DNA of 23,994 bases from a virus. A program made the position numbers and the translations under genes. The stretch lies in IMG/VR virus record IMGVR_UViG_3300050121_000033, positions 1-23,994 of that record; one strand, written 5' to 3'. The notes below the pieces were generated by a model, which saw nothing but the letters and a program-made list of their open reading frames with translations, had not been told where the DNA came from and made no database searches. Shown here one piece after another: positions 21,771 through 22,906 of this stretch; within the stretch, counting starts at the first letter, position 1; every line of letters begins with the position of its first letter.

Positions 21771-21890
21771 ATGGACGATCAATCCATCGAGCAGGTCAAG
21801 AAACTCTACGAGGTGCTGGGCGGCGATATCAGCATCAGCGTGGAACCGGCGCAGGATAAGCAGGCTGGCTTGGATCTGAGGGCAGCATGA
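21771..21890 (+). CDS. Small acidic hypothetical peptide
   Basis: 39 aa, MDDQSIEQVKKLYEVLGGDI and on. GGAG lies 7 bases before the ATG, and the stop overlaps the next start (ATGA). Mostly one amphipathic helix plus a polar tail. No family recognised. The good translation signals support it. Confidence 0.55.
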   Translation: MDDQSIEQVKKLYEVLGGDISISVEPAQDKQAGLDLRAA

Positions 21891-22123
21891 CACGCCAAGG
21901 TCAATCCAAGCGCGGAAGTGTCTCTGAGGCCATCGTTAATGTGATCGTCGGCTACGGCATCAATATGACCGCTAACGCAGTGCTGTTCCCGCTGTTCGGG
22001 TGGCACATATCGCTGCGGCAAAACATCGCCCTCGGCGTCTTCTACACCGCAATATCGCTCGTGCGCTCGTACTGCCTGCGCCGCACTTTCAACTGGATCG
22101 GCTTCGGCCGTAAAGGAATATGA
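21887..22123 (+). CDS. DUF7220-like small membrane protein
   Basis: 78 aa. A polar start (MTRQGQSKRGSVSEAIVN) leads to two hydrophobic spans, about 18-36 (IVNVIVGYGINMTANAVLFP) and 44-62 (ISLRQNIALGVFYTAISLVR), and a basic end RSYCLRRTFNWIGFGRKG. This 'E...N...G......VFPLFG..... N......T..S..RSY.LRR.FN' pattern is common in phages and is, I believe, classed as DUF7220. Role unknown. The stop codon overlaps the methyltransferase start. Confidence 0.8.
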   Translation: MTRQGQSKRGSVSEAIVNVIVGYGINMTANAVLFPLFGWHISLRQNIALGVFYTAISLVRSYCLRRTFNWIGFGRKGI

Positions 22124-22893
22124 ATGAGCTGTATATTCAGCGCCGCGATGGTGAAGGCTTGCGGGAACTCGCGCTCTTCGCTGGTGCCGGCGGAGGCATC
22201 CTCGGCGGTCACCTCCTTGGATGGCGAACCGTGTGCGCAGTTGAACGTGATGCCTACGCCGCACAAGTTCTCGCGCAACGACAAAACGATGGATGCCTCA
22301 GACCATTCCCGATTTGGTCTGACGTGTGCAGTTTTGACGGCCGACCGTGGCGCGGCATTGTTGATGTCGTATCTGGCGGCTTTCCGTGCCAGGACATCAG
22401 CGCGTCTGGCAACGGCAAAGGACTCTCTGGAGAACGAAGTGGACTCTGGACGGAAATGTTCCGGATCATTCGCGAGGTGGAGCCCGAATACGTTTTCGTG
22501 GAAAACAGCCCAATTCTCACTTCTAGGGGGCTTGGAACCGTTCTTGGAGATCTGGCCTCGATCGGGTTCGATGCGCAGTGGGATGTGTTTTCAGCAGCCG
22601 ACTTCGGCGCCGATCACCTACGCGAACGTATCTGGATTGTTGCCCACTCCAACAAAATCCTGGGCTCGCCGCGGGCCTGGCCTAAGCAACAATCTGAACC
22701 GCTTGCGCATGACCCTATGGGTTACGCAAACCTGTCTGGCGATAGTCGCAGCCGTTGGGTGGCGCTGGCCTCCCAGTTTCGTCGAATGGATGATGGGATG
22801 GCCCATTCAGTGGACCGCACTGCGGCCCTTGGAAACGGCCAAGTTCCACGAGTGGCAGCAGCAGCATTCACCATTCTCAGCAATCGATTCTAA
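22120..22893 (+). CDS. C5 cytosine DNA methyltransferase (short form)
   Basis: 257 aa. Motif I LALFAGAGGGILGGHL for AdoMet, the motif II acid in AVERD, motif IV GGFPCQDIS with nucleophile Cys90, motif VI as FVENS (128-130), motif VIII RERIWIV (168-174), and motif X GNGQVP (238-243) are all present and in order, so catalysis is plausible. Only about 60 residues lie between motifs VIII and X, so the target-recognition region is unusually small. It would methylate phage DNA, perhaps to evade host restriction. The ATG at 22120 overlaps the previous stop (ATGA), but the SD (AAGGA) is only 2 bases away. The entire gene is overlapped in the +1 frame by the ORF at 22124-22906. Confidence 0.88.
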   Translation: MNELYIQRRDGEGLRELALFAGAGGGILGGHLLGWRTVCAVERDAYAAQVLAQRQNDGCLRPFPIWSDVCSFDGRPWRGIVDVVSGGFPCQDISASGNGKGLSGERSGLWTEMFRIIREVEPEYVFVENSPILTSRGLGTVLGDLASIGFDAQWDVFSAADFGADHLRERIWIVAHSNKILGSPRAWPKQQSEPLAHDPMGYANLSGDSRSRWVALASQFRRMDDGMAHSVDRTAALGNGQVPRVAAAAFTILSNRF

Positions 22894-22906
22894 GGAAACA
22901 GCATGA
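22124..22906 (+). CDS. Overlapping +1-frame ORF covering the whole methyltransferase gene
   Basis: 260 aa, open from 22124 to 22906. Its ATG lies 6 bases from the AAGGA site, a better distance than for the methyltransferase ATG four bases earlier. Its stop overlaps the next gene start as ATGA, the rule in this operon. The product has blocks I recognise from many phage and metagenome proteins: GAALLMSYLAAFRARTSARL, SWKTAQFSLLGGLEPF, WPRSGSMRSG, LLPTPT, and PSFVEWMMGWPIQWTALRPL. Such proteins are usually annotated methyltransferase-like or hypothetical. They correspond residue for residue to the +1 frame of C5 methyltransferases (the motif X DNA gives this WMMGWP block). It may be a real overprinted gene, or a frame kept open by codon bias. 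Confidence 0.45.
   Translation: MSCIFSAAMVKACGNSRSSLVPAEASSAVTSLDGEPCAQLNVMPTPHKFSRNDKTMDASDHSRFGLTCAVLTADRGAALLMSYLAAFRARTSARLATAKDSLENEVDSGRKCSGSFARWSPNTFSWKTAQFSLLGGLEPFLEIWPRSGSMRSGMCFQQPTSAPITYANVSGLLPTPTKSWARRGPGLSNNLNRLRMTLWVTQTCLAIVAAVGWRWPPSFVEWMMGWPIQWTALRPLETAKFHEWQQQHSPFSAIDSKETA

Follow-up and report, generated by a model that had tools for sequence, protein, structure and literature searches.

A phage C5 DNA methyltransferase proposed to be split between two overprinted reading frames

INTRODUCTION

What does a second long open frame within a phage methyltransferase gene encode? This question is raised by a locus in IMG/VR record IMGVR_UViG_3300050121_000033, a viral record from which a window of 23,994 bases (the whole stretch of DNA analyzed) was taken. 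Since the window harbors genes for a terminase, a portal, a major head protein, a RecT-like protein and an exonuclease, its source is a tailed phage. At positions 22120 to 22906, two frames of the same strand are open together, one for the catalytic body of a C5 DNA methyltransferase (alpha) and one for an overprinted protein (beta). We show that the two frames are each conserved and that selection acts on both. Furthermore, comparison with related enzymes makes it likely that the two proteins are subunits of a single C5 methyltransferase, in which beta would account for the recognition region and for motif IX. The locus is organized as follows.

22113 to 22117, + strand: ribosome-binding site AAGGA common to alpha and beta, with spacings of 2 bases to the alpha start and 6 to that of beta
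22120 to 22126, + strand: double start ATGAATG, with the alpha ATG at 22120 and the beta ATG at 22124
22120 to 22893, + strand, frame 0: alpha, C5 DNA methyltransferase catalytic body of 257 amino acids with motifs I to VIII and X
22124 to 22906, + strand, frame +1: beta, overprinted protein of 260 amino acids, proposed recognition/motif IX subunit

RESULTS

The second frame is under selection. A sequence-only reading of the window had proposed that the two genes are overprinted, and had named frequent +1 stop codons among homologues as evidence that would speak against this. For the analysis, 80 viral loci were fetched with the methyltransferase protein as query and 22 with the +1 protein; 86 were usable, approximately 15 of them retrieved by the +1 protein and the remainder by the methyltransferase. 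For the window gene alone, the lack of any +1 stop had a P value of 0.005 under phage codon usage and of 0.07 when its own codons were shuffled. Across the 86 loci, a single +1 stop was observed, while 306 ± 12 were expected after synonymous codon shuffling, and the frame was stop-free in 85 loci (1.4 expected by shuffling). The +2 frame of the same loci contained 1319 stops. The +1 proteins were 37 to 56% identical to the beta of the window (mean, 44%; synonymous shuffling gives 29%), and in 54 of 54 loci this identity was above that of all 30 shuffles.

The sequence-only reading had also asked for reduced synonymous change in frame 0. Indeed, this constraint was strong, and it was greatest opposite the conserved blocks of the +1 protein. 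In 30 sequences less than 75% identical to each other, codons for the same residue in frame 0 were identical at a fraction of 0.61, compared to 0.34 ± 0.002 after shuffling. Codon identity peaked (0.77 to 0.80) at alpha residues 41 to 80 and 221 to 240, which correspond to the most conserved parts of beta, and was only 0.39 versus 0.34 at alpha residues 101 to 120, where beta is variable. Such a regional pattern within one set of sequences speaks against shared ancestry as its cause. Thus, as expected of an overlapping gene pair, the +1 frame is open beyond chance and the synonymous sites of frame 0 are constrained. We conclude that the +1 overlap is not due to chance and that each of the two frames is conserved under selection.

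The double start is conserved. The ATGAATG arrangement, the distances of AAGGA to both start codons, and the length of the two frames (about 260 codons each) had all been described in the sequence-only reading and were confirmed; the sequence of the start region is GTAAAGGAATATGAATGAGC. Beta covers the whole length of alpha, beginning 4 bases later and ending 13 bases further on. Its stop codon TGA (22904 to 22906) overlaps the ATG of the next gene at 22903, giving the ATGA overlap noted earlier. A double start of the form NTGAATG was found in at least 140 distinct related loci and is followed in nearly all of them by AGYTGG, so that frame 0 reads MNEL and frame +1 reads MSW. A recognizable ribosome site was present in 114 of 140 double-start loci, with a median gap of 4 bases to alpha and 8 bases to beta. 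Judged by sequence, a single ribosome site appears to serve both starts, its spacing being better for beta. Together, the codon-shuffle, synonymous-constraint and conserved-double-start tests support overprinting at this locus.

The TGA at 22121 to 22123, within the double start, is also the stop codon of an upstream gene (21887 to 22123). We considered termination-reinitiation from the upstream gene as a general mode of expression and rejected it, because an upstream frame of at least 40 codons terminating at this TGA is present in only about half of the double-start loci. It may contribute to expression at some of them.

Alpha provides the catalytic half of a C5 methyltransferase. It contains motif I, the PCQ of motif IV, the EN of motif VI, the RxR of motif VIII and the GN of motif X. 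Pfam PF00145 matches residues 17 to 192 with an E value of 5e-32, and phrog_363 matches with 8e-65. The conserved positions were located as follows.

22384 to 22392, + strand: alpha motif IV, catalytic PCQ (residues 89 to 91), invariant in alignment A2
22501 to 22509, + strand: alpha motif VI, ENS (residues 128 to 130; ENV in classical enzymes), from alignment A2 and the M.HhaI alignment
22621 to 22635, + strand: alpha motif VIII, RERIW (residues 168 to 172), from alignment A2 and the M.HhaI alignment
22831 to 22848, + strand: alpha motif X, GNGQVP (residues 238 to 243), from alignment A2 and a motif scan

The sequence-only reading had taken frame 0 for a complete, short C5 methyltransferase, and this did not hold. 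The PF00145 match covers only positions 4 to 177 of the 324 in the profile, and the profile alignment of alpha to M.HhaI stops at motif VIII. Neither the PF00145 match nor a motif scan of frame 0 revealed motif IX, and the recognition region is minimal. Alpha is therefore not a complete single-chain enzyme: the family profile ends at position 177, and motif IX is located in the +1 frame.

Beta resembles the part that alpha lacks. It matches phrog_1008 (7e-19, residues 73 to 201), phrog_26627 and phrog_35493. Pfam and NCBIfam scans of beta gave no match, and searching PDB sequences with a profile of beta yielded nothing meaningful. Four blocks of beta were mapped.

22496 to 22513, + strand: beta block SWKTAQ (residues 125 to 130), W126 being more than 90% conserved in alignment A1
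22553 to 22582, + strand: beta block WPRSGSMRSG (residues 144 to 153), with P145, G148 and G153 invariant in alignment A1
22637 to 22654, + strand: beta block LLPTPT (residues 172 to 177), the first LPTP module, from alignment A1
22763 to 22819, + strand: beta motif IX equivalent RWPPSFVEWMMGWPIQWTA (residues 214 to 232), aligned by hhalign to single-chain motif IX with an E value of 3e-9

The C-terminal pattern in the family is (L)NPxWVEWLMGWPxGWT. Longer betas with two or three LPTP modules are present in loci L014, L016 and L053, where alpha has an equal number of ADS/ADT-type segments. Since the modules and the segments are encoded by the same DNA, their number varies jointly in both frames.

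The link between beta and methyltransferases was provided by single-chain phage relatives (L021, Gordonia phage CheeseTouch gp88, L270 and others). In these, one frame encodes motifs I to VIII, a variable stretch, RLSPxFxEWMMGxPxGWVT, and GNGVVPQQ (motif X). The variable stretch, which separates motif VIII from motif IX in the common frame, often carries LLPTPxAxD modules. The LPTPT...EWMMGWPxGW module of beta is also found in these enzymes, read in the catalytic frame and flanked by motifs VIII and X. The alpha profile aligned to residues 101 to 257 of L021, and the beta profile aligned to residues 340 to 450 of the same protein (probability, 96.6; E value, 6e-10). In an hhalign comparison with a profile of 23 single-chain sequences, beta aligned at motif IX over 18 columns, which gave the E value listed above. 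Furthermore, phrog_1008 matches both beta and residues 191 to 341 of the CheeseTouch enzyme, and PF00145 extends through the motif IX segment in CheeseTouch (to profile position 316 of 324) and in L270 (to 314 of 324). The AlphaFold2 model of L270 was confident at residues 1 to 160 and 262 to 345, including motifs IX and X, and of very low confidence between motifs VIII and IX; the model aligned to M.HhaI as a whole chain (Z, 23.7; 234 residues; root mean square deviation, 3.2). These profile comparisons indicate homology between the C-terminal third of beta and the recognition/motif IX region of the single-chain enzymes. Of the two roles suggested for the +1 product in the sequence-only reading, that of a recognition partner thus gains support from this homology, and that of an independent early protein becomes less likely.

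The arrangement is widespread and occurs in several layouts. Because a regular expression for motif IX lost a third of the loci, a hidden Markov model scan of about 300 loci was used in its place. The layout with motif IX in frame +1 and motif X in frame 0 accounted for 213 loci; both motifs were in frame 0 (single chain) in 43 and in frame +1 in 17. The last layout is represented by gp6/gp5 of mycobacteriophage Catdawg, whose genes overlap in part and are both annotated as "DNA methylase". In Stenotrophomonas phage SOVA965 (L181), beta is shorter and starts near motif IV, suggesting that its N-terminal half is dispensable there. In a tree of alpha N-terminal halves, single-chain and overprinted types were mostly apart; the base of the tree was weakly supported.

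An overlapping alpha frame was present in 93 of the 95 loci fetched by the +1 protein; the two without it appear truncated or disrupted by an insertion. This comes close to a pattern that the sequence-only reading had held against overprinting, namely, a +1 family existing only as an out-of-frame reading of methyltransferases. It does not refute overprinting, given the constraint on synonymous sites of frame 0 and given that the module stands in a frame of its own in Catdawg gp5 and in the single-chain enzymes.

Viral contigs contained overprinted loci, and so did genomes from Pseudomonadota and several further phyla. Mostly, one frame only is annotated: beta alone in phPA-G, Vibrio 1.236.O and SOVA965, and alpha alone in S9-5, ABMM1 and an Acinetobacter baumannii plasmid. 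The SOVA965 gene labeled "DNA-cytosine methyltransferase" is the beta frame, and the catalytic alpha frame was left unannotated.

Some individual loci deviate. In L017 (1700 to 1790) and L172 (2690 to 2830), a run of nine G residues follows motif IV, and the N terminus of beta continues into the frame of alpha; this may reflect slippage, sequencing error or decay. In Mycobacterium phage Llama (L177, gp74/gp75), a frameshift at motif VI disrupts both frames, so that the methyltransferase is annotated as two genes, and several related mycobacteriophages give the same split match. In L175 (1 to 900), a frame for an HNH-type endonuclease lies within the pair at the site of motif IX, with the motif IX block on either side. 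In L173 (2300 to 3400), both frames end at one point after about 60 codons, next to what appears to be another methyltransferase gene; this arrangement looks like a recombination remnant.

DISCUSSION

Alpha lacks the recognition region and motif IX, and beta has both, which leads us to the proposal of a split, overprinted C5 methyltransferase. According to this model, ribosomes would start at either AUG of AUGAAUG, using one ribosome-binding site. Translation of frame 0 would yield alpha, with S-adenosylmethionine binding, catalysis and motif X, and translation of frame +1 would yield beta, with a recognition region of the LPTP type and the motif IX segment, by which the recognition domain of ordinary enzymes is connected to the catalytic body. 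Translation of beta, complex formation and activity are inferred: the two chains would assemble into an active enzyme, as is reported for the two polypeptides of M.EcoHK31I. Solitary phage methyltransferases usually shield phage DNA from host restriction, and the phage probably methylates its own DNA to this end.

Several observations weigh against this proposal. The AlphaFold2 model of beta alone was of low confidence (predicted local distance difference test score, 57.8), and a structure search with it retrieved no PDB match at Z ≥ 2, so that a recognition-domain fold was not borne out; its BFVD matches had very low template modeling scores and reflect sequence relatives. The motif IX segment is collinear with residues 273 to 308 of M.HhaI, but that stretch alone scores an insignificant -0.1 bits. 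Controls also exceeded shuffling in codon identity, although by less (0.445 versus 0.363 in single-chain and 0.389 versus 0.339 in two-gene relatives), and part of the synonymous signal is contributed by shared ancestry. Among close relatives, alpha third codon positions hold 60% of the differences; beta evolves faster than alpha and is the less constrained of the two. Finally, in single-chain actinophage loci (L178, L183 to L193, L262 to L271 and others), motifs IX and X are both in the catalytic frame, and still a beta-like +1 frame persists. It reads W-T...WPxSGxxRNG...LLPTP and stops before motif IX, and across motifs V to VIII it is, in these loci as a group, depleted of stops (15 versus 56). 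Since this frame is kept despite a frame-0 motif IX, the role of beta is not motif IX alone. Beta probably contributes more, possibly the recognition surface itself.

The same actinophage loci would suit a real overprinted protein with a job separate from methylation, for example in anti-restriction or another early phage function, as would the first half of beta (MSWLFSQAL... to about residue 100), for which no counterpart was found in single-chain methyltransferases. We consider such a separate job improbable, given that the C-terminal third of beta is homologous to exactly the region missing from alpha in this family and that beta without alpha was limited to the two damaged loci mentioned above. 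Ribosomal frameshifting, which would restore a single chain from both frames, has in its favor that single-chain relatives join the N-terminal half of alpha with the C-terminal half of beta and that the G runs in L017 and L172 show that frames can fuse. Nevertheless, beta has its own well-placed start and a conserved N terminus, ribosomes would have to shift twice to produce the fused order (by +1 past motif VIII and back again ahead of motif X), and the window showed no shared slip site; this makes frameshifting very improbable. The least credible explanation is that the +1 frame is open as a side effect of the codon bias and amino acid sequence of frame 0 and has no product. The window gene alone, with its codon-shuffle P value of only 0.07, would leave room for it, but it is already contradicted by a stop deficit across loci of about 25 standard deviations, by the block-by-block synonymous constraint, and by the conserved double start. 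A two-subunit enzyme thus remains our preferred interpretation.

The coding sequence for the small chain of M.EcoHK31I lies within that for the large chain, in a different frame, a parallel that we treat as a lead and not as a test. M.EcoHK31I is a two-polypeptide C5 methyltransferase recognizing YGGCCR (Lee et al. 1995 NAR 23:103, cited in PMC3404938). In the passages of PMC3404938 that describe it, the large chain carries motifs I to VIII and X and the small chain motif IX, and by that description it is the closest known enzyme to the alpha-beta pair. In contrast to this pair, for which we propose recognition by beta, those passages place the recognition domain of M.EcoHK31I on the large chain. 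Moreover, beta overlaps alpha entirely and has additional N-terminal blocks, and the pair is found in a phage, with no restriction enzyme recognized among the annotated genes of the window. M.AquI, according to the passages of the same article dealing with it, is a natural C5 methyltransferase split after motif VIII into two separate chains. Its small chain carries motifs IX and X, unlike in the window, where motif X (GNGQVP) is on alpha; Catdawg gp6/gp5 shows that an AquI-like layout exists within the wider family. The single-chain actinophage enzymes (CheeseTouch gp88, L021 and L270) are homologous in the alpha part, have LPTP modules in several cases and an EWMMG motif IX, but differ in that motif IX is in the catalytic frame and beta is shrunk to a partial +1 frame. 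ShiLan-type out-of-frame HNH insertions (PMC11855218) likewise hide a second-frame protein in a phage methylase gene; those proteins are inserted mobile endonucleases, whereas we read beta as a conserved component of the methyltransferase. Among the papers covered by the literature search, none describes the alpha-beta phage overlap.

We regard the alpha-beta arrangement as a widespread new form of a known split-methyltransferase type. On balance, we favor the broader view of a large phage enzyme class in which both obligate subunits of one methyltransferase are made from the same DNA and one start region, and in which the recognition/motif IX module has moved between frames (+1, frame 0, or a gene of its own that overlaps in part). 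It is rare for two genes to overlap at length on one strand and for each product to be identifiable; here both enzyme halves lie on about 770 common bases, and they do so in hundreds of loci from viruses and prophages, chiefly of Pseudomonadota and also of others. The finding offers a function for phage families that are annotated as unknown or given a loose methyltransferase label: phrog_1008, phrog_26627 and phrog_35493 (listed as "DNA methyltransferase" or unknown) appear to represent the beta half or its C-terminal piece, not a whole enzyme. It also explains why annotation flips between the frames, one-frame calls hiding the arrangement, and suggests that many short phage methyltransferases, if expressed alone, would seem inactive for want of beta. 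The locus provides a testable system for the evolution of a heterodimeric enzyme whose subunits cannot mutate independently. If the module moved between frames as we read it, catalysis and DNA specificity would be coupled nucleotide by nucleotide.
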